A DNA stretch of 64,000 bases from Nitrospiraceae bacterium (GTDB lineage Bacteria; Nitrospirota; Thermodesulfovibrionia; UBA6902). The first letter of the stretch is position 1. The number at the start of each line of letters is the position of its first letter. The position numbers and the translations under genes were made by a program. The notes beneath the pieces are model-generated. The model worked only from the letters and a program-made list of their open reading frames with translations. It had not been told where the DNA came from and made no database searches. The stretch lies in assembly GCA_003599275.1 (NCBI GenBank), contig QZJG01000042.1, positions 1-64,000 of the forward strand, given 5' to 3'. This document shows positions 46,425-64,000 of the stretch, piece by piece.

Positions 46425-49400
46425 TCAAACCTTCATGAGCTTGACTTTTGTGTCATAAAACGAAACGCTTCCGCCGACAGGGTCGAGCATACAGGTGTTT
46501 TTCAGGTGAGGGTCGGTCCACATTGCGGCATTTGCGTGAATTCCTGTTGCCCTTCTCGGATCGCCTTTGACGACTTTGCCGTCTATGCTGACGTCAACTG
46601 CGCCTGTTGCCCAGTGACCGAACCCGAGCACAAAAGTAATTGCGCCCGGCATGATTGTCTCGGTCGTCATGATCTTCCCGATCATCGGTTTTTTCATTCC
46701 GTTCTTCAAATCCCAGACGCCTTCTTTGTTTGTCGCGGAGACCACTTTGACCTTGTCTCCTGTTTTCAGTCCGAAATTTTTTGCATCCTTCGTGTTGATC
46801 AATATCTCGTTCTCGGGTTTGACGGCAAGCAGCCAGTAATCAGCGATGGTCCTGGACTTGGTCATTGCCACATGCCGCTGTGTAAGGAGGTGAAGCGGAT
46901 AGCCTTCTTCAAGCCCTTCTTCTTTCGGGGACTTCCCAAGCGCGGTTGAGACAGGGAGATAGGTCGCGTAACCGGGGTTGGATTTTCCCGTAAATGCGCT
47001 CTTCGTGCCCGCTGTTTTCTCCTGATAGATATTGATCAGCTTTTTGTACTGGTTGGACACATGCTCGCCTTTGTATACGTCTTTGTATTCCTGGAACCTT
47101 CCGCCGCGGTTAAGGACGTATACGACTTTTCGCCAGTTTGCCCCGGCGATCTTCTCCCATCTCTCAGGATCAAAGACTGTTTTGGGAAGATGCTTTCTTG
47201 AATCAAGAAAGAGCTTCAGCTCCGCGTCATCCGCGTCAGGCACAGGGCTGCCGTCGGTCGCTACATTCGCCACCATCCTGATGTAGAAATCATCAGGTGT
47301 TGTGAAATCTTCTCCGGCCGCGAAACCGTCCTTGCCGAAACCCTTCATGCCCAGCTTCTCAGCTAATGCAAGCTGGAGCGCCTCATAAGAGCAGGGCATC
47401 TCTTCGCCGAAAACCGTTACAGTATCGGGTATCGGCGCGATGACCGGCTGCCTGACCGGCTGGACCTTTACAGGCATGTTCGGATGTGAGCCCTGCATCT
47501 CCCACCGCTCAAGATAGGTAAGGTCGGGGAAGATATAATCCGCGTACATCGACGTTGTTCCTATGAGAATGTCGGAGCAGAAGTACAACGGGATTTTATT
47601 CACGTCTGCAAGTATTTCAATGTTCGTATGTCCCGCGGGTAAAGCATACGCGGGGGTCCCCATATAACTGAACAAGGCCTTGATCGGGTAGGGATAGGCG
47701 TCACCCATCGATGGGACCAGCTCTTCATAAATATCGCTTGAGAGGGGCCACCAGTTTCTCTTTGCGGGATAGCCGTTAAAGAGCGTTGAGTCTTCGTATT
47801 TAATGTCGTGCCTTATCACGCTTATGCCGAACTTTGAAGTCTTGCCCGGTTTCATCTTTCCGAGGTCAAAGGGCTGTCCCTCTTTCCCGCCCATAGGGCC
47901 GTAAGCGGATGCCGCTATCATGCCGCCTTTCCAGTCAAAGTTCCCAAGCAGGAGATTGACGGTCATTGCAGAGGTGACATTGTAAAAGCCGTTGGTATGC
48001 TGGGCAATTCCCCTGTGCACGTCCACAACCGCCTTTTTGCCGTGATTCGCGAGCTCCTGAGCGACCTCTTCAATATCCTTTACGCTTATGCCGCAGATCT
48101 TTGACCATTCAGCCATGGATTTGGAATTTGCTGCGTCAGCCACGACCTGAAGGGCGCTTTTGACCTTGATGCCGCTGAGTTCTGCGTCTACCAGAAGGTC
48201 CCCCGTCACCGGCGCTTTTTCATCGTTAGGGTCAACGGCAACAGGCTTGCCGTCTTTCATCACAACAAGATACTCGAAGTCGTGTTCTTTCCCGTCCTTG
48301 TCCGTTCGTTTTTCCGGCTGTGCGAGACCTGTCTCATTTGCCCTCAGGAATTTCCCCGGTTTTCCATCCTTGTCGGTTTTTACGAGGAGTACCGCGTTGG
48401 TCCATGTAGACTCGTCTGCTGCCTTTGCCGCGGCCTTGTTCGCGTTTCCGAGATATTCGGCATCGAACTTTTTGTTCTTTATCATCCACTGGATAATCCC
48501 GGCGAAAAACGCAGCGTCCGTGCCCGGATTTATCGGCAGATATTTATTAGCCTTTGCTGCGGCCTTGTTGAATCTCGGGTCCACAACCGTCATCTTTGCC
48601 TCGCCGTCCGCAAGTCTCGGGACAAGTCGCGCATTCCTGTTAGGCGGACCGTAATTGGCGTCAAAGAGATTTGATCCGACACAGAGGATGTATTTTGAGT
48701 TTTCGAAATCACCCTGCCAGTAGAACTTCTGGCCGCCGCCGAATTTGTTGTATTCATACTGCTCGCTCATCGCCTTGCAGGTGAAATAGAGAGAGCCCTG
48801 GCATACAGTGGTGTGACCATGTGTATTTACCGTGCCGAAGTAGTCGCCGAAAAACCTCGCGGAGAAATCGCTCCTGCCGCCCTTCTTCCTTCCCCAGATA
48901 TAGACGAACTGGTTGTTTTTGGGGCCGAAGTCCGGATGTTCAGGGTCAATGAGATAATGGAGGTTTGCCGCGTGTTTTGTCTTGAAGTCTTCCACCGCCT
49001 TTTTTTTGTCTTTCGCTTTTGCGATTGCCTTTGCGTCCTCGCCCATCTCCTTTGTCGTCTTCGGGTCTCTAAGCGCATAAAGGTCTTTTAAGCCGGTCAC
49101 CACTCTTTCTTCCTCGCCGGGGACGTTTTTAAATAAGACGCCGCCGTTGACAATCTCATCGACTGCTTGCCCGAACGGGACCGTCATCCATTTGTTTTCA
49201 CCCCGCTTCCCAGCCCTCTTTAAGACCTTTGTTATCCTGTACGGGTCATACGCTGTTTGTATGCCCGCGTGCCCCTTGGGACAAATTGCCATGTCTACGG
49301 TATTGGTATCGAAGGGTGAAGTCTTATACGGCAGATGAGGCACTGATACAAAGGGGTTGAAAGGGTTGCCGTCGATCTTAAGAGCTATTGCAGAGCCGTT

Positions 49401-49640
49401 TTTTCTGTAGAGCTTGACCTTTATGCCGCAGCCCGTGTTGCATTGCAGACAGACTGTATGAAGGATATTTTCAGCTCTTATGAGCTCATATTCCTCTTCC
49501 GCGGATATAAACCCGGCCTCCGCCCTGCGCATAAGGTCGGCGGTCCATTCCATCTGGGAAGCAAGCAGGGCGCCTCCAAGCACCGCGGAGCATTTCATAA
49601 AGTCTCTTCTGCTGAATCCGTTGTTCTTTTTGTCATCCAT
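46425..49640 (-). CDS. molybdopterin-dependent oxidoreductase catalytic subunit (TtrA/PsrA-like)
   Basis: The 1071-residue protein has a twin-arginine signal (GFSRRDFMKCSAVLGG), a 4Fe-4S motif VCLQCNTGCGIKV...ICPKGHAG (about residues 60-120) and the bis-MGD domain. A cysteine in HTTVCQGSLYF near 270 is the expected Mo ligand. The lysine-rich insert (about 165-230) and the C-terminal LLTQRHVAMTKSRTIADYWL and FVLGFGHWATGA are like tetrathionate/polysulfide-type enzymes, but the substrate is not certain. ATG 49640 is used because GGAGGTG lies 6-10 nt upstream; the GTG at 49649 overlaps that site. It is exported folded with its FeS partner. Confidence 0.87.
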   Translation of the reverse strand: MDDKKNNGFSRRDFMKCSAVLGGALLASQMEWTADLMRRAEAGFISAEEEYELIRAENILHTVCLQCNTGCGIKVKLYRKNGSAIALKIDGNPFNPFVSVPHLPYKTSPFDTNTVDMAICPKGHAGIQTAYDPYRITKVLKRAGKRGENKWMTVPFGQAVDEIVNGGVLFKNVPGEEERVVTGLKDLYALRDPKTTKEMGEDAKAIAKAKDKKKAVEDFKTKHAANLHYLIDPEHPDFGPKNNQFVYIWGRKKGGRSDFSARFFGDYFGTVNTHGHTTVCQGSLYFTCKAMSEQYEYNKFGGGQKFYWQGDFENSKYILCVGSNLFDANYGPPNRNARLVPRLADGEAKMTVVDPRFNKAAAKANKYLPINPGTDAAFFAGIIQWMIKNKKFDAEYLGNANKAAAKAADESTWTNAVLLVKTDKDGKPGKFLRANETGLAQPEKRTDKDGKEHDFEYLVVMKDGKPVAVDPNDEKAPVTGDLLVDAELSGIKVKSALQVVADAANSKSMAEWSKICGISVKDIEEVAQELANHGKKAVVDVHRGIAQHTNGFYNVTSAMTVNLLLGNFDWKGGMIAASAYGPMGGKEGQPFDLGKMKPGKTSKFGISVIRHDIKYEDSTLFNGYPAKRNWWPLSSDIYEELVPSMGDAYPYPIKALFSYMGTPAYALPAGHTNIEILADVNKIPLYFCSDILIGTTSMYADYIFPDLTYLERWEMQGSHPNMPVKVQPVRQPVIAPIPDTVTVFGEEMPCSYEALQLALAEKLGMKGFGKDGFAAGEDFTTPDDFYIRMVANVATDGSPVPDADDAELKLFLDSRKHLPKTVFDPERWEKIAGANWRKVVYVLNRGGRFQEYKDVYKGEHVSNQYKKLINIYQEKTAGTKSAFTGKSNPGYATYLPVSTALGKSPKEEGLEEGYPLHLLTQRHVAMTKSRTIADYWLLAVKPENEILINTKDAKNFGLKTGDKVKVVSATNKEGVWDLKNGMKKPMIGKIMTTETIMPGAITFVLGFGHWATGAVDVSIDGKVVKGDPRRATGIHANAAMWTDPHLKNTCMLDPVGGSVSFYDTKVKLMKV

Positions 49641-49655
49641 GATTTTCACCTCCTT

Positions 49656-50501
49656 TTAAACCGGCAGTATGTAATACACTCTCGGTTTTGTTACGGCTGA
49701 ATCCGCAAAGACAGGCGCCATGCCCGGATAACCGACCTTCTTTGCTATTTCTTCAGCGCTCTTATTTTTAAACATGCCTGTCCCCACCTTTGCGTCAACG
49801 TTCGGAGTGACGCCGGACAATACTTTTATTTTGTTTTTCATCATGACCTTGTGAATAAGGCTCTCTTTGTCCTCAGGGTCTCCGAAGTAATTGGCCCTGC
49901 ATACGCATGTGTTGACGCACACGGGGACCATTCCTTTTCTGAGCCTGTGCAGGCAGAAATGGCATTTACGTGCGACCCCGACAGGCAGTTGGTCCTTCTC
50001 GCGGGGCCATTTCCTGCTGTATTCCCACGACGGAGATTCATCATATCCTTCAATCTTCGGAGTGCCTCCGGTATGGAACGCCCCACGGTCGAGGGTCCTT
50101 GCCTTGTATGGACAGCCTGCAACACAGCGGCCGCAGCCGATGCACTGCTCGTAATTAATCATCACTATTCCTGCGCTGTCGCCTTTTGTGCTCTTCCACG
50201 TGGCCTTGCCTTCTCCTTTGTTGGGACAGGCCTCAACGCACGGCGGGTCATCGCACTGCAGGCACGGTCTCGGAGTAAAACGCCTTTTGACCTTTGGGAA
50301 CGTCCCCGTCTCTTCCAGATAGATCGGCCTGTACATGACCCCGGGCGGGCTTTTCTGCTCCACCATGCAGCCTACCGTGCAGGCCTTGCAGGCCGTGCAC
50401 CTTCTGAGGTCGATCAGCATCGCCCATTTTGTGCCGGGCTTTCCGTAAGCCCTTTTAATGTCTTCCTGTATAACCGTCAATTCGTCTCTGCCTTCGAACA
50501 T
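49656..50501 (-). CDS. 4Fe-4S dicluster electron-transfer subunit (DmsB/TtrB-like)
   Basis: The 281-residue protein has four ferredoxin-type cysteine groups: CTACKACTVGC near 35, CLQCDDPPCVEAC near 81, CIGCGRCVAGC near 119, and CHFCLHRLRKGMVPVCVNTC near 180. These should hold four 4Fe-4S clusters that pass electrons between the Mo subunit and an external partner. No TAT signal, so it is probably co-exported with the catalytic subunit. It lies between a triheme cytochrome and the catalytic gene, with GGAGGTGG before ATG 50501. A membrane NrfD-type anchor is not encoded in the window. Confidence 0.88.
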   Translation of the reverse strand: MFEGRDELTVIQEDIKRAYGKPGTKWAMLIDLRRCTACKACTVGCMVEQKSPPGVMYRPIYLEETGTFPKVKRRFTPRPCLQCDDPPCVEACPNKGEGKATWKSTKGDSAGIVMINYEQCIGCGRCVAGCPYKARTLDRGAFHTGGTPKIEGYDESPSWEYSRKWPREKDQLPVGVARKCHFCLHRLRKGMVPVCVNTCVCRANYFGDPEDKESLIHKVMMKNKIKVLSGVTPNVDAKVGTGMFKNKSAEEIAKKVGYPGMAPVFADSAVTKPRVYYILPV

Positions 50502-50516
50502 TTGGGTCCACCTCCT

Positions 50517-50825
50517 TTATTTTTTGTGGCAATTGGCGCAGCTACCCTTAACGTCAAATGCCCTTGTGCCGTTGTGGCAGGCGCCGCATGACTGCCCTTT
50601 CTGCATTTGGGACATTGTTGCTGTCTTGCGCTTTTCCTTTGTGATAAAAAGCGCATCGTGGCAGTCGGTGCATTTAAGCCCTGCGCCTGCAATATGATTG
50701 TCATGGCTGAACATAACATTGCCTATGCTCCTGACCTCAAAAGTTATGTCGCCTCCTCCTGTTTTTGCGGCTGCAAAAGACGCCGATAACAGGGTGGCAA
50801 TAATTAAAAGCAGTAATATTTTCAT
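50517..50825 (-). CDS. small triheme cytochrome c (c7-like)
   Basis: The 102-residue protein has a signal peptide (MKILLLLIIATLLSASFAAA) and three heme-c motifs: CTDCH near 53, CGACH near 80 and CANCH near 96. An extra pattern FSHDNHIAG near 40 supplies distal histidines. Size and heme count resemble periplasmic c7/c3-type electron carriers. It is the first gene of the Mo operon, so it is the likely direct redox partner of the FeS subunit in place of a quinol-oxidising anchor. Ribosome site GGAGGTGAGAG precedes ATG. Confidence 0.87.
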   Translation of the reverse strand: MKILLLLIIATLLSASFAAAKTGGGDITFEVRSIGNVMFSHDNHIAGAGLKCTDCHDALFITKEKRKTATMSQMQKGQSCGACHNGTRAFDVKGSCANCHKK

Positions 50826-52395: not shown

Positions 52396-52420
52396 GTCAT
52401 TCTGAGCGCAACGAAGAATC
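52395..52420. repeat. short dispersed repeat forming the kinase C-terminus
   Basis: CGTCATTCTGAGCGCAACG followed by AAGAATC resembles the widespread bacterial repeat GTCATTCTGAGCGAAGCGAA. It is read on the - strand as the final residues TDSSLRSE of the kinase and contains its stop codon. Confidence 0.55.
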
Positions 52421-54001
52421 AGTCTTACCGGCAAGCATGCTCCGGGACGGAAAAATTATTCTGAAGGTCGTTCCCTTGCCGGGCACACTGTCAACATAAA
52501 TATCGCCGCCGTGGTCTTTTACTATACCGTATGTGATGGAAAGCCCCAGGCCCGTTCCGTCTTTTTTGGTTGTGTAAAAAGGCTGAAATATTTTTTGGAG
52601 CGCATCGTTGGGAATTCCCGTCCCTGTATCAGCTATAGTTATTTCGACCCCAGTTCCGGTATTCTTTGTGATGATCTTCAGCTCCCCGCCGTCGGGCATG
52701 GCCTGGACCGCGTTCAAAAACAGGTTCAGTAACACCTGCTTCAGGTTCGCCGGGTCTGCTTCTACTGAAGCAAGGTCCTTGTCCAGATTTCTCTTTACAA
52801 CTATCTTTCTCATCGAATGCTGGTAATTAATCAGTGTCAGCGTTTCATTTATAACACTGTTGATATCCAGGATTTTTTCTTCATGCACTGATGTCCTCGC
52901 AAACTCAAGCAGACCCTGGACAATTCTCTTGCACCGGAGGATTTCCTGCTCAATGACCTTCAGGTCCTTTTTTACAGGGTCGTCGCCGTCAATCTGGGAA
53001 TTTATCAGTTGTGTAAAACCAAGGACCGTATTCAGCGGCGTGCTCATCTCATGTGATACTCCTGCCGCCATTGTACCGATGGCAGCGAGGGTCTCCGCCC
53101 GCACCATGCTTTCCTGTGTAAGCCTGAGTTTGTCCGTCGCTTCTTTTACCCTTTTTTCGAGTTCTTCGTTAAATCCTTTCAGCGCATCGAGAAGTTTGTC
53201 CTTTTCCTCATTCATCGCGCTCAGTTTTGCCGTCATGTTATTAAAGGCCTCCGCCATAAACCCGATCTCGTCTTTTGTATCAACCCGGACCCTCTTGGAG
53301 AAATCACCCGATGCAATGGTCTGGATCCCTTTTATCAATGAATTTACCGAACCTGTGACGCCCCTGATTATTACCATCAGCACTATCAGGGAAGACACGA
53401 TTGTAACGAATATGGAAGTGAATATTAACGTTCTCGACCTGGTTATGAGGATGTTCCTTTTGCTTTTGATTTCGCTTCTCATCTTGTCTGCCGCATGCCT
53501 CGCCTTTTCAAGAAGTCCGATCATGGTAATGCCCTTCTGGGTCGCCGCGTCCTCAACCAGCTTTATCTGGATCGCATCGTTTGTTGTGATAAGTATGCTC
53601 ACGTCTTCTTTATAGTCCTTTTCAAGCTTCTCTATACCGGACAATATTCCGGACAGCGACGTCAGCCTTTCTTCTATCTGTGAGTGGCACTGCATGCAGG
53701 CCACGTCGTGGAGGTGGGAAGAGTATTTTTTCGGAAGGAATTCCAGGTTTGCATCAAACTCCTCTATATAACGTATAAGGTCATCAATATTCCTTGTGTA
53801 GCCGGCCTGATGCCTGTAAAGCTCGGCCTGGGCGCCTTTCATCTGGAAAAGCATTTCATTGTACATGGTGATTATCATGTCCTGCTCGTTTATGAGGTTC
53901 TGGTTTGCGACTATGGTGTTCAGGTTCTGTATTACAACCATGGAACCTATGGTGAATATCAGCAGTACCAGCGCGAGTCCTGTTATGAGTTTCTTTTTCA
54001 T
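52397..54001 (-). CDS. heme-c sensor histidine kinase with HAMP domain
   Basis: The 534-residue protein has a helix at about 5-24, a helical periplasmic sensor (25-190) containing a CxxCH motif, CMQCH, at 102-106, a second helix (about 192-215), a HAMP domain (SGDFSKRVRVDTKDEIGFM), a coiled coil and a kinase core: GVSHEMSTPLNTVLGF near 320, N box LLNLFLNAVQAMP, G boxes IADTGTGIP and GTGLGLSITYGIV. A covalent periplasmic heme would let it sense redox state or a gas. It overlaps the PhnD-type gene by ATGA. The last ~8 residues come from a dispersed repeat. Confidence 0.87.
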   Translation of the reverse strand: MKKKLITGLALVLLIFTIGSMVVIQNLNTIVANQNLINEQDMIITMYNEMLFQMKGAQAELYRHQAGYTRNIDDLIRYIEEFDANLEFLPKKYSSHLHDVACMQCHSQIEERLTSLSGILSGIEKLEKDYKEDVSILITTNDAIQIKLVEDAATQKGITMIGLLEKARHAADKMRSEIKSKRNILITRSRTLIFTSIFVTIVSSLIVLMVIIRGVTGSVNSLIKGIQTIASGDFSKRVRVDTKDEIGFMAEAFNNMTAKLSAMNEEKDKLLDALKGFNEELEKRVKEATDKLRLTQESMVRAETLAAIGTMAAGVSHEMSTPLNTVLGFTQLINSQIDGDDPVKKDLKVIEQEILRCKRIVQGLLEFARTSVHEEKILDINSVINETLTLINYQHSMRKIVVKRNLDKDLASVEADPANLKQVLLNLFLNAVQAMPDGGELKIITKNTGTGVEITIADTGTGIPNDALQKIFQPFYTTKKDGTGLGLSITYGIVKDHGGDIYVDSVPGKGTTFRIIFPSRSMLAGKTDSSLRSE

Positions 54002-55125: not shown

Positions 55126-56514
55126 TTAATTCGCAGAGACGAAGTTGCTGTCGAACAGGTCATATTTTTTCATCCTGCGCCTCAGGGCGTCCCTCCCGAT
55201 ATTAAGCATCCTCGCGGCCTGGCTCTGGTTGCCGTTTGAATGGCCAAGCGCCTGTAAAAGCATATTACGCTCCATTTCTTCCAATGATCTGCCGGAGCGT
55301 ATGTTGTCTGGAAACGGTCCGTTATTAACTTTGTATACATGCTGTCTCAGCTCCACGGGAAGGGTGTCAATCCGGATGGACGGCCCTGCGGATAAAAGGA
55401 CCCCTTTTTCAATAATATTCCTGAGCTCACGTATATTGCCCGGCCAGTCATGCTCAAGAAGAATTTCTAAAACTTCTCCGGGAATCTCATTTATGCTCCT
55501 GTTAAACTTCTTGTTGTAAAGACCCATGAAGTGCATGGAAAGCGGGACTATGTCCTCTTTCCTGTCTCTGAGAGGAGGGATAGTTATAGGTATGACGTTT
55601 AATCTGTAATAAAGGTCTTCCCTGAATTCTTTTTTCCTGACAGCTTCTGAGAGATTCTTATTGGTTGCGGCTACTATATTTACATCTGCACTGATATCCG
55701 TGGTGCCGCCCAGCCTGCGGAATTTCTTTTCCTCTATGAGACGGAGCAGTTTAATCTGCACGTCCATCTTTATTTCGCCGATTTCATCGAGAAAGAGGGT
55801 GCCGCCGTCGGCGATCTCAAAAAGCCCCTTCTTTTGTGTCCGGGCATCCGTAAAAGCGCCTTTTTCATGTCCGAAGAGCTCGCTTTCAAGCAGGTGGTCG
55901 GGAAGGGCGCCGCAATTTATTTCCACAAAAGGCATTTGCCTTCTTTCACTCATGTTGTGTATCGCGCCGGCAACAAGATTTTTGCCTGTGCCGGTCTCAC
56001 CCTGAAGAAGCACAACGGGCATATCCATGCTCACGATCACCTGTGAAACAAGCCTCATGACCCCGGCCATTTTTTCCGACCTGTAAACAACGCCCGCGGG
56101 ATTTCCGTTTACAACATTACAATCATGCTGTATAACGGTGTCAACGCAAGGCTGCTTTATTATGTTTTTTATGGACCCCAGCAGTTTGTCCATTGAAAAG
56201 GGCTTAACTATGTAATCGTGCGCTCCGGCTTTCATGGCCTTGACAGCCGTCTCCGCATCGTCCATGGCCGTAAGCATGATTACCACGGCTTCTTTATCTA
56301 TTTTTTTTATCTCACAGAGGGTTTCAAGTCCGTCCATGACCGGCATCGTATAATCCAGTAAGAGGAGGTCTGTATTTCCACGTGAATATTTTTTTAACGC
56401 CTCCTTTCCATTCTCCGCCGTAGAAACTTCGAAATCTCTTTTGAAGAGCTCTTTTTCCAGCGAATGCCTGATAAGCTCATCATCGTCTGCTAAAATGATC
56501 TTTAACTTTTGCAT
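55126..56514 (-). CDS. NtrC-family sigma-54 response regulator
   Basis: The 462-residue protein has a receiver (ADDDE at 9-13, phosphoacceptor Asp54 in LLLLDYTMPVMDG), an AAA+ domain with GETGTGKN (Walker A, N in place of E), the loop GAFTDA, Walker B GTLFLDEIGE, and a Fis HTH (NQSQAARMLNIGRDALRRRM). It activates RpoN promoters. ATG 56514 is used because GAGG lies about 10 nt upstream and the receiver starts there. It lies between the two heme-c kinases, its likely partners. Its own gene has a sigma-54 promoter. Confidence 0.9.
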   Translation of the reverse strand: MQKLKIILADDDELIRHSLEKELFKRDFEVSTAENGKEALKKYSRGNTDLLLLDYTMPVMDGLETLCEIKKIDKEAVVIMLTAMDDAETAVKAMKAGAHDYIVKPFSMDKLLGSIKNIIKQPCVDTVIQHDCNVVNGNPAGVVYRSEKMAGVMRLVSQVIVSMDMPVVLLQGETGTGKNLVAGAIHNMSERRQMPFVEINCGALPDHLLESELFGHEKGAFTDARTQKKGLFEIADGGTLFLDEIGEIKMDVQIKLLRLIEEKKFRRLGGTTDISADVNIVAATNKNLSEAVRKKEFREDLYYRLNVIPITIPPLRDRKEDIVPLSMHFMGLYNKKFNRSINEIPGEVLEILLEHDWPGNIRELRNIIEKGVLLSAGPSIRIDTLPVELRQHVYKVNNGPFPDNIRSGRSLEEMERNMLLQALGHSNGNQSQAARMLNIGRDALRRRMKKYDLFDSNFVSAN

Positions 56515-56560
56515 CGAAAACCTCACAAGTTAAAATAGGGTCCAGGATCACTTGTCTTGT

Positions 56561-56730: not shown

Positions 56731-58236
56731 TCAACTCGTAACTCTTGCACCGGCCGGCAGCTTCACGGTAAAAGTGGTCCCCGTCCCCTGCCTGCTTTCA
56801 ATAACGATTTCGCCGCCCTGGGCTTCAATAACTCCTTTTGATATGAACAGTCCCAGGCCCGTGCCGTTTTCCTTTGTAGTAAAAAACGGTTCAAATACCC
56901 TGCTCATTTCATGGTCCGGGATCCCGGGACCGCTGTCTGAGAATGAAACATAACAGCTTCCGTTGTCAGGAGACACCCCCGAAATTATCCTGAGGCTGCC
57001 GCCGGACGGCATGGACTGGATGGCATTCAGCAGCAAATTGAGAAAAACAAGTTTCAGATTATCAGGCTCTGCATAGACCTCGGGCAAATTATCCGTGAAT
57101 TTTTTCAGGATCCTGATCTTCTGCTTTTCCGCCTGCTTCACAACAAGGAATAAGGCGCCTTCCACAAGATCATTCAGGTTGACGTGCTCCAGCATGGAGC
57201 GGGAAGGCTTTATAAAGCTCAGTTGTTTCTTGGCCATGTTCATGACCTTATCTAAATGTATCAGGACACGTTCCAATATGTATCCCGCCTCGCTCCCTTC
57301 TTTTTCATCATCCTTCAGCGCCTTTAAAGAAAAATATACGCCTGTAAGCGGACTCTGGATTTCATGTATGATCCCGGAGGTAAGCTGTCCGATTGCAACA
57401 AGTTTTTCCGTCTGATAGAGATGTTTCTTGTAACTTTCCCTTAACTCCCTGTTTGTATTATTCAAGGATTCAACCATAGCATTCAAGCTGTCCCCAAGAT
57501 GTCCGATTTCATCCTTTATCGGGTAATCTTCTTTTACGGTAAGGTCTCCCTGTTTAACTCCGTCAATCACTTTTTTTAACTTTTTTACGGGCCGGTATAT
57601 GTAGCGGTTGTTTAAAAAAAACAGGATCAGAGATACGGAGATCATTGCAACAATAGAAGAGAAAATAAGCCTGTTCCGGTTTTCAATGATCAGCTTCTCG
57701 GTCGGCGTCATTGAGATGTCGACAAGCATGATTCCTAAAAATTGTCTGTTTCTGTCATGACAACTGAAACACTCTTTGCTGTTGGACAACCTTGTAACAA
57801 CACTGAGGACCCTCCGGCCTGATTTGAAACCGGTATTCATGACCTGCTCTTTGTCCATTTCAAGGAAATTTGATATATACGAAGCGCTTATCTTCATCCC
57901 GATGGAATTCGGATTTGTCGAGTATACTATCTGACCGTCTTCTTTTATTATGGAAGCTGTTTCTATTTCCCTGGATTTGTTCATGTCCTCCATAAATTGT
58001 GTTATCTCGCCCCTGTCGTTTTTTATCATGTGGTACTCAAGGTTGCTTAATAAGGTTGAAGATATGAAGAACCCCGATTCCTCCGCTTTTCTGAGTGTGT
58101 CTCTCCTCTGGACCTCCTCAATGACATATGTAGAAGCGCCGAGCACCGCAAGTAGTGACATGACGATTGCAACGGTGATCTTGGTATTCAGCCTGTAGAA
58201 AATTTTATCTCTGATAGTGAAAAACATAAAACTCAC
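56731..58236 (-). CDS. heme-c sensor histidine kinase with HAMP domain
   Basis: The 501-residue protein has a helix at about 18-38, a periplasmic sensor (about 40-190) with a single CxxCH motif, CFSCH, at 156-160, a second helix (about 190-207), HAMP (KQGDLTVKEDYPIKDEIG), and a kinase core: GIIHEIQSPLTGVYFSL near 277, VFLNLLLNAIQSMP near 390 and G boxes FSDSGPGIP and NGTGLGLFISKGV. It is the last gene of the giant-cytochrome operon; GTG 58236 overlaps the AMIN lipoprotein stop (GTGA). ATG 58227 is a possible alternative start. The sensor probably reports heme redox state. Confidence 0.87.
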   Translation of the reverse strand: MSFMFFTIRDKIFYRLNTKITVAIVMSLLAVLGASTYVIEEVQRRDTLRKAEESGFFISSTLLSNLEYHMIKNDRGEITQFMEDMNKSREIETASIIKEDGQIVYSTNPNSIGMKISASYISNFLEMDKEQVMNTGFKSGRRVLSVVTRLSNSKECFSCHDRNRQFLGIMLVDISMTPTEKLIIENRNRLIFSSIVAMISVSLILFFLNNRYIYRPVKKLKKVIDGVKQGDLTVKEDYPIKDEIGHLGDSLNAMVESLNNTNRELRESYKKHLYQTEKLVAIGQLTSGIIHEIQSPLTGVYFSLKALKDDEKEGSEAGYILERVLIHLDKVMNMAKKQLSFIKPSRSMLEHVNLNDLVEGALFLVVKQAEKQKIRILKKFTDNLPEVYAEPDNLKLVFLNLLLNAIQSMPSGGSLRIISGVSPDNGSCYVSFSDSGPGIPDHEMSRVFEPFFTTKENGTGLGLFISKGVIEAQGGEIVIESRQGTGTTFTVKLPAGARVTS

Positions 58237-58778
58237 GTCTTTCGGAGGACACTTATATAGAGAGCTTTATCCAAAGGAAGAACATCATAAGTGGTCTTCC
58301 CTGTAAGCCTTATAGTGATTCTTACAGCGGCGCCCCTTTCGGTATTCAGCTCGGCAATCTCTACACGACTGATGGTGCCGTTATTGACCTCGATTTTTTC
58401 GGGGGCCTTCCCTTTTGTTGTCTTATGGAGCACGACCATAATCCGATCGGGGTCGGCTTTCTGCACAACATTATAAAGAAAATCCCCGGAGAGGGTAATA
58501 TGAAACATGGTCAAATTTCTTGAGTCATCTTCTGTTATTTTTAAACCGGTAAGACTTATCGAAGGCATTGCCCCGTGAATTCCGGATGTTGGTCCCCCCG
58601 GCTTTAAAGCCTCTGACGTACCCGCAGGCTTTTCAGGCGGTACAGGTTTTGCCTGCACCGCCGGTTTTTCAGCAGAGGGTGGGGGCGCATCAGTTTTTCC
58701 TTTGCACCCGGAGAAGATGAACAGCATAAAGACTGTTCCCGTGATCGCAACCATTTGTCTGTAATTTTTAAAGTTCAT
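58233..58778 (-). CDS. AMIN-domain lipoprotein
   Basis: The 181-residue protein has a lipoprotein signal ending FIFSGC, a Pro/Lys-rich linker (about 30-75) and a C-terminal AMIN-type domain with NLTMFHITLSGDFLYNV, DPDRIMVVLHKT, ISRVEIAEL and AAVRITIRLTG. AMIN domains bind peptidoglycan or sit in secretin partners, and this could position the cytochrome complex at the wall. ATG 58778 follows AAGGACAGC; the longer frame lacks a site and runs into the cytochrome gene. It overlaps that gene by 11 nt. Confidence 0.8.
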   Translation of the reverse strand: MNFKNYRQMVAITGTVFMLFIFSGCKGKTDAPPPSAEKPAVQAKPVPPEKPAGTSEALKPGGPTSGIHGAMPSISLTGLKITEDDSRNLTMFHITLSGDFLYNVVQKADPDRIMVVLHKTTKGKAPEKIEVNNGTISRVEIAELNTERGAAVRITIRLTGKTTYDVLPLDKALYISVLRKT

Positions 58779-61700
58779 GCTGTCCTTTCTTATGACACCG
58801 CCTGCAAAGCTCTCTACGCCTGTCGCCGTTTGTGAGTTTGTCATTATCTGATGAATGCGGATTATGACAACTGACGCAGTTTATATATTGCCCCGTCGCG
58901 GCGTCTACATAAGGGCTTTTACCCATGCCGTGCATATGGGTTTTTTGTACCTGCTCATGGCATTGCAAACAGAGTTGTTTCAGGTCCATCGCAAGAAGTC
59001 TTGCCTGCTCGCCTGAGTGAGGGACATGGCAGGTTGAACAGTCTTCTGCAGGGGGATGCTTGACTTTCCTGCTCACCATCTCATTTCCATGACAGTTAAG
59101 GCAAAGACCGGTAAATTGCTTAATCAAAAGTTTCTTTGAAGAAGCGGCGTGCGGAGAATGGCAGTTCAGGCACTGTTTGCCTGTAGCCACGGGGAAATGG
59201 ACTACCTTCCCGGCAAAGCCTTTTTTGGCGTCCGTATGGCATTCCCAGCAAAGTTCAGGCACTGGTTTTAAAATTTTCCTGCTGCCTTCAGAGACATGGC
59301 AGGAAGTACACGCTCCTTCCGCATACGGCGCGTGACTTACCGGTTCAAGGAGCGCCTTTGTCCCCTTATCATTCCCGTGGGGGTTATGGCAGCTCAGACA
59401 ATTGGAATCAGCTATGTCTATGCCCCTGTGTTTTGTTTTAAGGCCGGAGGCGTCATGACACCGCCAGCAAAGATCGGGGACTTTTTCTGCAATTAATTTC
59501 CTGTTATTGGTGCCGTGGGGGTCGTGACAGGCGCTGCAGGCCCCGTCGGCAACCGGCTTATGAAGAGATTTCCCGGCGAGGCTTTCTCCCAATTCCGTAT
59601 GACAGCCGAAACACAGGTCTTTCCCCGGCATCATGAGGAGCCCCTTGTTCTCCGAAGAGTGGGGATAATGGCAAACACCGCAATCTCCTCCGGCAAGCGG
59701 CTTATGCTGGAACATTCTCTCGTTAATATCGGATTTATCGGTGTGACAACGAGAGCATAATCTTGCACCCTGAGCTGCAAGGAGCTTGTTCCCTGAGGAC
59801 GCATGGGGATTATGACATCCAACGCATTGCCCGCTCTTTACCGGATTGTGCACCACAGTGTCCTTTAAGACTTTTTCCATGTCCGAATGGCAAATAAAGC
59901 AAAGTTGCTCTTTTGGTGTCAACAATGCCGTATCGCCGGCAGCTTTACTCTCGGCATGACAGAGGTCGCACGCCCTGTCTTTAAAGGGACTGTGGGCCTT
60001 GCTCCTTAAAAGCTTGCCGTTTTCAGATGAGTGCGGGTCATGACAGGAGGCGCATGCGGATTTTGAATCAGCCATATTCCTGTGGGCGGCCTTGAATTCG
60101 GTTTTTGACAGGTTATGACAGCCTGCACAGAGGTCGCCTACGGGTTTGAGAAGATTGCCGGGGTTGTCCGAACCATGCGGGGCATGACATGAAGTGCATT
60201 TGCCTTTTTCCACCGGGACGTGGACCTTACCTTCGCTGAAACGCTTCTTTTCTTCTTTATGACAGGAATAGCAGAGGTCGGTCCCTTCAGCGCTCAGACC
60301 CTTTTCAAAATCCGAACCGTGCGGGTTGTGGCATCCGGAGCATTCTCCCTTTTTTGCCGGGGTGTGGACCGATTTACTTTTGAATACCGGTTCAAGGTCT
60401 CCATGACACGTAAGGCAGAGAGCTTTCTGGTCTTTGGCGAGGATCGCCATGTTGTTGCTTCCATGCGGACTGTGACAATTAATACATTCCCCTGCGGCCG
60501 GTGGATGCGGATGCTTTTTTGAGAGGGCTTCTTTGAGAGCTGTATGGCAATTCAGGCAAAGCTCTTTGCCCTGTATTTTTGTAAGCGCCTTGCCTTCCGA
60601 ACGATGCGGCGTATGACATGCCGAGCATCCCTGATCTATGAGGGGCTTGTGTTTGTATCTGTAACCCGAGCTTTCTTTAAGGTCCGCATGACAGCTTACA
60701 CAAAGGTCTATCTCAACCTGTTTTAGCAGTTTCCGGTTAAGGGCACTGTGCGGCGTATGGCAGGTCAGGCATCCCTCCATATCCAGCGCCATATGGCGTG
60801 TTCCGGCACGATTAAGTTCCTGTTTGATCTTGTCGTGACATCCCAGGCAGAGTTCAACGCCTGTATTTTTTACAAGCTTGCTGTTTACCGAGCCATGCGG
60901 CTCATGACACGCGGCACATTTACCCTGATTAAAAGGATCATGGATCTGCGGCTTCTTGAGTTCATCATCAAGGAGCATGTGACATTCAAGGCACACTTTT
61001 TTCAAGTCCGCTTTTAACAGAGGACGCAATTCGCTTTTATGCGGGGTGTGGCATGTGAGACACTCGCCATCCTTTGCGGGGAAGTGCCCAACCTGCTTTT
61101 TAGTATTTTCAGAGACATCCGGATGGCACATTATACATAGTTCTTTGACCGGCTGTGTCAGTTTCCCTCCCCGGGGTCCCTCGTGGCAAACCGTACAATC
61201 TCCCTGGACATAAGGCTCGTGGATTGCAGGGAGGAGCGAACCCTTTTTCCCGGTGCCGTGAGGGCTGTGACAGACAATGCAGTTCTGGGCCTGTGTTGAG
61301 GGAAGATCATGAGGTTTCTTTGAGGTCACGCTATCTTTCTTATGGCAGGAAAAGCAAAGCTCATTGCCTGTCATTGTGAGCAGGCGGTCCTGATCGGATG
61401 AGTGCGCCGGATGACAGAGTATGCATTCACCCTTTTTGAAAGGTTGATGAACGCCGGCAGCGGACACTATTTCTTTAAGTCCTTTATGACATTCAAAACA
61501 GACAGAGGTGCTGTCCTCTGTTTCCTTCATTAATCCTTTTATGTTTGATGCATGGGGATTATGGCATGAAGTGCATTGCCCCTTTTGAGTTGGAGGGTGC
61601 ACGGTTTTCTTTTCAAACTTTTCTTTTAATTCGTTATGGCATGTATAGCAAAGCCCGGAACCTTCGGCCTTTAAAATCAGCTTATTGGAGAACCCATGCC

Positions 61701-61899
61701 GTTTGTGACAGGCCTCGCAGTCTTCCTTTGCCACAGGGGCGTGAACAAAGGTCTTTGTGTGCTTTACCTTCGCCTCTTTATGGCAATCATAGCAGGTCTT
61801 TTTTACTGCCAGTCCCTCGCGGCTTCCCAGTGTAATCAAGGATGCCAGAAAGAGAGTGAAAAGCAATCCCATGACAAGCTTTTTCCCATATCTTCCCAT
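58768..61899 (-). CDS. giant multiheme cytochrome c with 42 CxxCH motifs (doubled-CXXCH repeat type)
   Basis: The 1043-residue protein has a secretory signal (about 1-32) and then 42 CxxCH motifs, by count, arranged as 21 repeats of about 48 residues. Each repeat has an odd motif (LCYSCHKE type) and an even motif (GKCTSCHAPHGSDN type), a spacing typical of doubled-CXXCH proteins. Between them HxP or VHxP segments supply distal histidines. No enzymatic heme (CxxCK) is seen. A long extended heme chain in the periplasm or beyond is expected. ATG 61899 is preferred, six bases after GGAG; ATG 61902 and a TTG at 61917 are alternatives. Confidence 0.92.
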   Translation of the reverse strand: MGRYGKKLVMGLLFTLFLASLITLGSREGLAVKKTCYDCHKEAKVKHTKTFVHAPVAKEDCEACHKRHGFSNKLILKAEGSGLCYTCHNELKEKFEKKTVHPPTQKGQCTSCHNPHASNIKGLMKETEDSTSVCFECHKGLKEIVSAAGVHQPFKKGECILCHPAHSSDQDRLLTMTGNELCFSCHKKDSVTSKKPHDLPSTQAQNCIVCHSPHGTGKKGSLLPAIHEPYVQGDCTVCHEGPRGGKLTQPVKELCIMCHPDVSENTKKQVGHFPAKDGECLTCHTPHKSELRPLLKADLKKVCLECHMLLDDELKKPQIHDPFNQGKCAACHEPHGSVNSKLVKNTGVELCLGCHDKIKQELNRAGTRHMALDMEGCLTCHTPHSALNRKLLKQVEIDLCVSCHADLKESSGYRYKHKPLIDQGCSACHTPHRSEGKALTKIQGKELCLNCHTALKEALSKKHPHPPAAGECINCHSPHGSNNMAILAKDQKALCLTCHGDLEPVFKSKSVHTPAKKGECSGCHNPHGSDFEKGLSAEGTDLCYSCHKEEKKRFSEGKVHVPVEKGKCTSCHAPHGSDNPGNLLKPVGDLCAGCHNLSKTEFKAAHRNMADSKSACASCHDPHSSENGKLLRSKAHSPFKDRACDLCHAESKAAGDTALLTPKEQLCFICHSDMEKVLKDTVVHNPVKSGQCVGCHNPHASSGNKLLAAQGARLCSRCHTDKSDINERMFQHKPLAGGDCGVCHYPHSSENKGLLMMPGKDLCFGCHTELGESLAGKSLHKPVADGACSACHDPHGTNNRKLIAEKVPDLCWRCHDASGLKTKHRGIDIADSNCLSCHNPHGNDKGTKALLEPVSHAPYAEGACTSCHVSEGSRKILKPVPELCWECHTDAKKGFAGKVVHFPVATGKQCLNCHSPHAASSKKLLIKQFTGLCLNCHGNEMVSRKVKHPPAEDCSTCHVPHSGEQARLLAMDLKQLCLQCHEQVQKTHMHGMGKSPYVDAATGQYINCVSCHNPHSSDNDKLTNGDRRRELCRRCHKKGQHEL

Positions 61900-61913: not shown

Positions 61914-62516
61914 TCAATTCTTTATAGAAGCTGCGAATGCCTTTGCGATTTCTTCCGCAGTTTTTTGCGCCAGACTATCCATAGACTGGATCCTGCCTAT
62001 GCCAAAGACCGTTTCCGTATCTGTCCCGCGTCTTGGGGCGCTGACGGCCCAGACAATATTCCCCGTATCAGCGTCTATGATTCTTAAAGAAACGGCAATT
62101 GCGGGTACCTGGCCGGAGCCTCCCGCCCCTGTGGCAAGCTGCATATCATATTCATGCACAACCCCGATTATAAGAAGCCCGGCGCCGAGACGTTTTCCGA
62201 TCTTATTAACGGTCTCCCTGGAGATGGAAGTAGCAAGCCTGATCCTTTCCTGTGAAAGCACTGAAGCTACTTCACCGGGCTCGATGATATTGATCGGTGA
62301 GTGCTTTAATAATTCCACCAGCACGTAGTCCTCCATTATTTTCCCCGCCCCCTGTGTATCGCTGAGGTTGTCAAAAGGCAAAATCGCTATCTTGACGTTC
62401 CCTTCTCTTTTGAATTCATTGCTTCTGAAGGGTTTCATCGAGGTCCCGCAACCTGCAAGCAGTATCAAAAGCAATACTGAAATGCTGCCTGTATAAAAAA
62501 ACTGTCTTATTCCCAT
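61914..62516 (-). CDS. CsgG-like lipoprotein
   Basis: The 200-residue protein has a lipobox LLLAGC near 23 and a CsgG/curli-type domain: VKIAILPFDNLSDTQGAGKI, then the PINIIEPGEVASVL and LGAGLLIIGVVHEYD segments and VSLRIIDADTGNIVW. Such domains occur in outer-membrane secretion pores and related lipoproteins of unknown function. It is smaller than CsgG itself and lacks the transmembrane hairpin signs, so a pore is not shown. It lies 14 bp before the giant cytochrome gene in the same orientation. Confidence 0.75.
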   Translation of the reverse strand: MGIRQFFYTGSISVLLLILLAGCGTSMKPFRSNEFKREGNVKIAILPFDNLSDTQGAGKIMEDYVLVELLKHSPINIIEPGEVASVLSQERIRLATSISRETVNKIGKRLGAGLLIIGVVHEYDMQLATGAGGSGQVPAIAVSLRIIDADTGNIVWAVSAPRRGTDTETVFGIGRIQSMDSLAQKTAEEIAKAFAASIKN

Positions 62517-62532: not shown

Positions 62533-63126
62533 CTATTTTGAATATGCCTTTCTGTAGAAATCTTTCACCACACCCTCAGATATCTTCTGAGATAATTGTC
62601 CCAGGGTAAACTCTTCTCCGATGGTCACAATCGGCAGGTTGGGCCCTCCGGTTGCGGTAACGCTGTTCTGCCAGACGATTTTCCCGGTCAGGGCGTCTAT
62701 GAATTTCACCGTCATTGAAATCATGGGGTATTGCTCGCTGCCAAGCTGGATCATCTTGTAATCGTGGATAGTACCTGTGAAAATTCCCTGTATGTCCGCT
62801 ACATCGGCAATCTGGGCTATCTGCGCCGGTGTCAGCTCACTCACGGAGGCGGACCCGCCTGCGACCTGTGAGACCACGGCATTAAACTGCCCGGGGTCCA
62901 TTATTTCCAGTTCACCCCGTATGAGAAGCTCGGTCATAAAATGCTCCGTTACTTTCTCTCCCGCAAGCCTGTCGTCTGCCTGGGTAATAAAGGGGGACAG
63001 GCCTGCTTTTTGATAAAAGCTGAAGTCAGCATCGGAATGTATAAAACTCCGGCTGTCCATAAGAGAGCTGCAACCCGTGGAAGTTATCATCAGCAAAGAA
63101 AGTATTAATATGTTAAAGCGTTTCAT
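62533..63126 (-). CDS. CsgG-like lipoprotein (second copy)
   Basis: The 197-residue protein has a lipoprotein signal (LMITSTGC) and a domain related to its neighbour: VTEHFMTELLIRGELEIMDP, ADVADIQGIFTGTIHDYKM and VKFIDALTGKIVWQNSV. The C-terminus QLSQKISEGVVKDF resembles the neighbour's LAQKTAEEIAKAF. ATG 63126 is chosen because GGAGG lies 5 nt upstream; an ATG at 63138 overlaps the upstream stop and has no site. Two different CsgG-like lipoproteins in series suggest a hetero-oligomer or partner pair at the outer membrane. Confidence 0.75.
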   Translation of the reverse strand: MKRFNILILSLLMITSTGCSSLMDSRSFIHSDADFSFYQKAGLSPFITQADDRLAGEKVTEHFMTELLIRGELEIMDPGQFNAVVSQVAGGSASVSELTPAQIAQIADVADIQGIFTGTIHDYKMIQLGSEQYPMISMTVKFIDALTGKIVWQNSVTATGGPNLPIVTIGEEFTLGQLSQKISEGVVKDFYRKAYSK

Positions 63127-63137
63127 TCCGTCCTCCA

Positions 63138-64000
63138 TTAAAAGGATTTGTTGTATCTGACCCTTATAAAACTGCTCTGCTCATCTTCGAACAACTGCGA
63201 TATTGAATATATCAGGTCCAGTGTGGTCCGCTTCCTTAACATAAACCTGAGGCTCCCTGAAGTATTATCAGTTGTTGCCCCGGCCACCGCAGTGCTGCCG
63301 TAGCTCAGGCTTGCCTGGTGTCCGCGATAGAACCTGTAAGCCATAGTAGCTGTTCCCGAATATGATTCGTCTCCCGTCTCGGGCAGCGTGACGGCGCCGG
63401 TCAGGCTGTAGCTGGTCCGGCGGTTTGGCTGATAACTTAACGAACCGTTCAGATTCTGACTGTCTATGCTTGTGAGATCAAGCTCGTCAGAGGAAGAATT
63501 TACCGAATAAAAAAGCGTGAGCATTGTTTTGTCGGATGGTATCATGTTCATCTGCACTGATTCGTTGACTGAAAAGGTCTCGGTTACAGGCTCAAGATGT
63601 TGAGGGGCCGACCAGTCACCTGTCGCTGAAGAAAGTTTGGTATACAGGTCATTGCCGGACGTATCAAAAAAGGTGAAGCCGGCCGGTCTGTCGTCATAGG
63701 CCGCCCGGTCTGACAATGTTCCGGAGGCGTCGAAGTCCCGTGTGCTCACAAATGCCGGGGATTCGCTTCTGCCGATATTCATATTGACTCTTAACGAAAC
63801 CCTCGGCGTCAGGTCCATTACCGAGTTCAATCCGAAATTGTCCCTTATATTATCGCCCTGATCGGGGTCTGTTTCGCGGGTCCGTGATACGTTTAAGCCA
63901 AGTTGGACCTTTTCCTGTAATTTATGTAAGAACGATGCTCCCAACGTAGTAAAATCCACACTGCGTATCTGCTCTATATCGTCAAACTTCCTGTTTCCTG
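63138..64000 (-). CDS. outer-membrane beta-barrel-like protein (5' truncated by window)
   Basis: The frame is open to the window end with no stop upstream of the first in-frame GTG (63959), so the N-terminus lies outside. The visible ~287 residues are alternating strands with polar turns (VSLRVNMNIGRSES, TMAYRFYRGHQASLSYG, RTTLDLIYSISQLFED) and end VRYNKSF with a terminal phenylalanine, as in outer-membrane barrels. No heme motif is seen. It is upstream of the CsgG-like and cytochrome genes in the same operon, so a barrel plus multiheme conduit is a reasonable hypothesis. Confidence 0.7.
   Translation of the reverse strand, partial: GNRKFDDIEQIRSVDFTTLGASFLHKLQEKVQLGLNVSRTRETDPDQGDNIRDNFGLNSVMDLTPRVSLRVNMNIGRSESPAFVSTRDFDASGTLSDRAAYDDRPAGFTFFDTSGNDLYTKLSSATGDWSAPQHLEPVTETFSVNESVQMNMIPSDKTMLTLFYSVNSSSDELDLTSIDSQNLNGSLSYQPNRRTSYSLTGAVTLPETGDESYSGTATMAYRFYRGHQASLSYGSTAVAGATTDNTSGSLRFMLRKRTTLDLIYSISQLFEDEQSSFIRVRYNKSF

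Follow-up and report, generated by a model that had tools for sequence, protein, structure and literature searches.

The 64,000-nucleotide stretch of Nitrospiraceae DNA analysed here (the window) carries a gene for a doubled-CXXCH c-type cytochrome with 42 heme-binding motifs (58768–61899, minus strand). Judged by its heme register, this gene is a genuine fusion of two ancestrally adjacent genes, one of OscI type for 26 hemes and one of OscJ type for 16 hemes, with loss of the inner signal peptide. The explanation we regard as best, and as probable, is that the product of the OscI-OscJ fusion forms one elongated 42-heme conductor charging a nanowire or outer-membrane apparatus. The original prediction had described an array of 21 double-heme units, and missed both that the gene joins two genes (26 + 16 hemes) which are separate in most relatives and that it belongs to a locus of the OmcS-nanowire type. 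The split pair and its operon are already known. The inter-gene fusion and the nearly constant number of 42 hemes, in one chain or two, across the Nitrospirota appear to be new, as neither a description of them nor a match to a 42-heme protein was found in a literature search of incomplete coverage.

The 42-heme protein and its heme array

The host, a deep-subsurface Nitrospirota bacterium, has a genome of 3.05 Mb, and its nearest named relatives are the Thermodesulfovibrionia MAGs SURF_11, DeMMO2_3, and DeMMO2_13 from deep-mine sites. The locus lies on a 76.7-kb contig, for which a plasmid search returned no match. The open reading frame starts with an ATG codon after AGGAG and has its sole stop at the end, the other five frames containing 27–69 stops. 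It encodes 1043 amino acids, beginning with a hydrophobic, cleavable signal peptide without a lipobox. All 84 cysteines lie within the 42 CXXCH motifs, and 2000 residue shuffles of the protein contained 0.56 such motifs on average and never more than 4. The mature form has about 1012 residues, as initially counted (42 motifs in about 1010 residues), and a computed mass of 110 kDa as apoprotein and about 136 kDa with 42 hemes. Its assignment to the doubled-CXXCH kind was borne out by profile searches, which yielded 719.9 bits over 20 stretches for the Pfam model Paired_CXXCH_1 and 705.5 bits for TIGR01905, above the curated cut-off; NCBIfam profiles likewise gave some 20 doubled-CXXCH stretches. 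The DmsE/MtrA model TIGR03508 also scored above its cut-off, but only by way of the many repeats, the protein having 42 hemes and not the ten of that family. The mature chain contains 45 histidines outside the motifs, of which 42 are conserved in all four fused homologues (see below) and would suffice for bis-His ligation of 42 hemes. This heme number is high, as had been claimed, but it is no record, since PMC5566968 reports a protein with 85 heme sites.

The array had been described as 21 near-regular doublets. An alternation of L-type ('LC..CH') and E-type sites ('EC..CH', mostly followed by PH) holds approximately, but the sites number 20 L and 22 E. An L-type heme would be expected but is absent at hemes 9, 26, and 35, where successive E-type hemes are 28–30 residues apart and the E-type heme lacks the PHGS tail, and the array is thus divided into four blocks of 9, 17, 9, and 7 hemes. 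The most similar blocks within the array include those at shifts of 17, 26, and 9 hemes (mean over 34 proteins or concatenated pairs), which suggests that the array grew in the distant past through duplication of a nine-heme block. The proposed old age of the array agrees with an inter-heme register that is common across the phylum.

Correspondence to separate 26- and 16-heme genes

The search for homologues covered 47 genomes from the same order, 230 from the class, and 396 from the phylum. The full-length 42-heme protein was found in four genomes only: that of the host, two of the same genus (80–84% identical), and one of another family (62%), with identities of 62–85% among the four homologues. 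Adjacent genes for 26 and 16 hemes occurred in the 32 Nitrospirota loci studied in detail (with one 25 + 16 and one 26 + 15 exception), and the closest non-fused relatives are also split into two adjacent genes. The paired genes either overlap by up to 44 bases or are separated by a gap of up to 75.

In a joint alignment, each heme of the split pairs fell onto a heme of the fused protein in the same order (42 of 42). Hemes 1–26 (OscI-like part; 59950–61806, minus strand) are in register with the separate 26-heme gene, with a peak at offset 0 (score 16.4 versus 6.4 for the next), and hemes 27–42 (OscJ-like part; 58771–59949, minus strand), where the second signal peptide is absent, with the 16-heme gene, with a peak at offset 26 (11.7 versus 8.0). 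One alignment that had placed the 16-heme proteins on hemes 1–16 was replaced by the joint alignment. Matches to the two genes of the genomes G351/G396 were collinear, at 39% (residues 25–651) and 38% (658–1036). Fused and split forms have spacing landmarks in common, with 28–30 residues at hemes 8–9, 25–26, and 34–35 and 29–31 at hemes 40–41, and agree in their N- and C-terminal motifs. For windows of a single heme the own counterpart was the best match in only 12%, and the register evidence is to be taken as collective rather than as a property of each heme. The protein thus shows the 26-then-16 register of OscI- and OscJ-type cytochromes in one open reading frame with one signal peptide, not in two separate exported proteins.

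At the junction, hemes 26 and 27 have the usual spacing of 23 residues. Separate OscI-type proteins end 6–10 residues past the first cysteine of heme 26 and most mature OscJ-type proteins seem to begin 9–17 residues ahead of heme 27, so that tail and head, once the signal peptide is removed, add up to nearly the spacing of the fused form. The fused forms constituted one clade with full support (100/100) on a long stem. Since split forms occur in both other lineages and, according to published papers, in the Desulfobacterota, the fusion is regarded as derived, a polarity to be read against an unrooted tree with a long fused stem.

Two observations concern the wider family. The split 26-heme genes of loci L049, L050, and L056 contain an insertion of about 28 residues between hemes 22 and 23 that adds no heme, and other large doubled-CXXCH proteins, of 18 hemes and 21 hemes, which lie near the family or may be related to it, are encoded at L063:2986-5232 and L099:8290-9843.

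Gene neighbourhood and proposed function

All neighbouring genes described here for the window are on the minus strand, like the 42-heme gene. An AMIN-domain putative lipoprotein gene (58233–58778) overlaps the end of the 42-heme gene and adjoins it in those fused-type loci long enough to show it. Farther downstream follow a histidine kinase whose sensor part contains a CXXCH motif (56731–58236) and, adjoining it, an NtrC-type sigma-54 response regulator (55126–56526). A second histidine kinase with a sensor CXXCH is located at 52397–54001, and both kinases lie beside an NtrC-type regulator and PhnD-like binding proteins; a heme-based redox control of the cytochrome locus by these kinases is possible. 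The sigma-54 promoter pattern occurred at chance level. On the other side of the 42-heme gene, profile and neighbourhood comparison identified two putative CsgG/LpoB-like lipoproteins (61914–62516 and 62533–63138) in the position of OscF/OscG-like genes, followed by a putative outer-membrane beta-barrel, whose C-terminal part lies in the window (63138–64000). The whole barrel gene (C6:63138-64940) codes for 600 amino acids ending in Phe, and its product is a distant relative of the 730–820-residue barrel of split operons according to a profile-profile match over the whole length. Beyond the window, three OmcS-like hexaheme cytochromes are encoded in tandem (L009:10161-14530 = C6:72160-76529); they are about 56–64% identical to each other, match the OmcS profile with E = 3.4e-81, and are the only strong OmcS-profile matches in the genome. 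The locus further contains a TolB-like propeller, two NHL propellers, and six-heme and nine-heme cytochromes.

Split loci typically begin with an OmcS-like hexaheme cytochrome (in L087 with a full-length match to OmcS at 1e-100), a YVTN-type propeller, a large barrel, and one or two CsgG/LpoB-like lipoproteins, and continue with a double CsgG/LpoB-like gene, a PPIase, the 26-heme and 16-heme genes, and then a propeller or small cytochromes. The fused locus shares with them a nearby OmcS-like gene and the barrel and lipoprotein genes, but has no adjacent PPIase; none of the OscH type was found in it, and the PPIases of the genome are on other contigs. The fused locus also has no counterpart of the lipobox that many 26-heme relatives bear, is missing the double-domain CsgG-like gene, and contains another type of propeller, so that the two locus types may not be functionally identical. 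Two further gene groups may be mentioned. Genes at 46425–50825 (minus strand) encode a molybdopterin oxidoreductase, a 4Fe-4S subunit, and a small three-heme protein, and could form a respiratory enzyme on the upstream or downstream side of the conduit. A second cytochrome cluster (L010; C42:1-12000) comprises a PPIase, a 388-residue doubled-CXXCH protein, NHL propellers, two more multiheme cytochromes, and a 571-residue barrel-like protein, and is perhaps another outer-membrane conduit.

In the preferred explanation, the product would be exported once, receive 42 bis-His hemes, and form a single elongated conductor, in which the 26/27 junction would correspond to the docking face between the separate 26- and 16-heme proteins of other species. 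The conductor is proposed to link periplasmic electron carriers with the barrel/lipoprotein apparatus of the outer membrane, passing electrons between them and thereby charging the OmcS-like filament. We infer heme loading, extended shape, location, and direction of electron flow. The heme wire foreseen in the original prediction is favoured by the ratio of about 24 residues per heme, the 42 conserved non-motif histidines, and the best solved relative by sequence, the wire MtrA (4e-33; PDB 6R2Q, MtrCAB, in the PDB copy of which the MtrA chain is mislabelled); AlphaFold models were of low confidence (pLDDT 51 and pTM 0.31 for the full protein, pLDDT 49 for hemes 22–42). The 20 hemes of MtrCAB extend over 185 A (6R2Q), and at this pitch 42 hemes, fully extended, would by our arithmetic reach about 400 A, enough to cross the periplasm, for which cytochromes of 21–27 hemes are already thought to be long enough (PMC10734462).

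The fusion bears on the route of electrons from the periplasm to OmcS nanowires, in an operon whose 26- and 16-heme cytochromes had no assigned function. It suggests that the split proteins usually connect at their ends to form one conductor, and a natural fusion at normal heme spacing predicts such docking with heme 26 beside heme 27. Models of the conduit gain a new constraint in the near-constant total of 42 hemes, and expression and imaging may be simpler for one exported polypeptide than for two.

An alternative that is unlikely, but carries some weight, has one half on either side of the outer membrane, the arrangement proposed for OetA/OetB, and makes the fused chain a one-piece trans-outer-membrane conductor running through the barrel, in effect MtrA, MtrC, and their joint within one polypeptide. 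The available passages of Murali 2023 on the Oet cluster describe OetA as periplasmic and OetB as a lipoprotein outside, with the barrel OetI between them; of the 32 separate 26-heme proteins, at least 16 have a lipobox; MtrA, the closest relative of solved structure, itself sits inside a barrel; and a barrel gene stands in the same gene row as the 42-heme gene. However, those passages do not match OetA and OetB to the 26- versus the 16-heme protein, no lipobox was found in the fused proteins or their closest split relatives, and the accessible parts of the literature on the Geobacter osc genes list both GSU2495 and GSU2494 as periplasmic. Should the halves elsewhere lie on opposite membrane sides, the fused chain has to pass through the barrel, whereas a periplasmic position of both, as listed for Geobacter, means that it spans the periplasm. 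A single chain that starts in the periplasm, passes through the outer-membrane barrel, and meets an OmcS-type filament at its base, with the count of 42 hemes, maintained across the phylum in one or two chains, set by the thickness of the envelope, is likewise put forward only tentatively.

It is quite improbable that the protein serves chiefly to store electrons in the periplasm, as a capacitor, or that it is a generic cytochrome spanning the periplasm without a specific connection to the nanowire genes. The very high heme density would fit charge storage, a role already suggested for large cytochromes elsewhere (PMC10734462), but heme count and spacing landmarks are conserved across the phylum, and fused and split forms alike have the neighbourhood of a nanowire/outer-membrane apparatus. 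The chances are very slim that the array expanded independently to 42 hemes and resembles 26 + 16 by coincidence, an idea to which the repetitive units and the poor single-unit match between fused and split forms lend themselves: the 28-residue landmarks, the 31-residue gap at hemes 40–41, and the terminal motifs match by position, and the register scores have clear peaks. Finally, although most relatives keep the two genes apart, in some cases in frame with each other and a short distance between them, an assembly or reading-frame error, considered from the outset as a possible source of a fused cytochrome, is excluded for practical purposes by the recurrence of the same join in four genomes at 62–85% identity, with the second gene's signal peptide absent and not read through, and by purifying selection on the fused gene, junction included (dN/dS about 0.09 overall and 0.04–0.16 across the junction where estimable).

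Comparison with known systems

A 26-heme/16-heme operon with propeller and PPIase has been described from ANME partners (Skennerton 2017; PMC5539420); its hosts include ANME-partner sulfate reducers, Geobacter, Anaeromyxobacter, and others (PMC5539420), and it is related to the OetABI cluster as far as the available text of PMC10553843 indicates. The fused locus resembles this operon in the order of 26 then 16 hemes, the propeller genes nearby, and the accessory cytochromes, but differs in having one gene instead of two, no PPIase, other propellers, a shorter barrel, and a host in the Nitrospirota.

In Geobacter, the accessible parts of PMC12977616, PMC13194489, and PMC2996986 link the eight-gene block GSU2500-GSU2493 to OmcS maturation and secretion and identify GSU2495 of Geobacter sulfurreducens, with 26 hemes, as oscI and GSU2494 as oscJ; the osc names are those of Shen 2025, as given in citing papers. 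The split-type relatives carry genes fitting this block, and their gene pair fits OscI/OscJ in heme number, gene order, and association with OmcS, the Geobacter side of the comparison being taken from papers. Like the osc operon, the companion of omcS, the fused locus has OmcS-like hexaheme genes followed by a maturation/secretion block; unlike it, oscI and oscJ are fused, OmcS-like genes are present in three copies, an OscH-type PPIase is missing, and an AMIN protein, a kinase, and a regulator are encoded downstream.

The decaheme proteins MtrA, PioA, and MtoA (DmsE family; TIGR03508) share with the 42-heme protein, as predicted here, a wire-like character and bis-His hemes, but contain 10 instead of 42 hemes, and no MtrB-family porin was recognised beside the 42-heme gene. 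By description, the protein can also be likened to the large PCC3 cytochromes, periplasmic or extracellular, of Fe(II) oxidisers (PMC5566968), with their very many hemes, low ratio of residues to hemes, and a porin in the cluster; the heme number of PCC3 varies from 10 to 85, whereas here it is fixed at 42.
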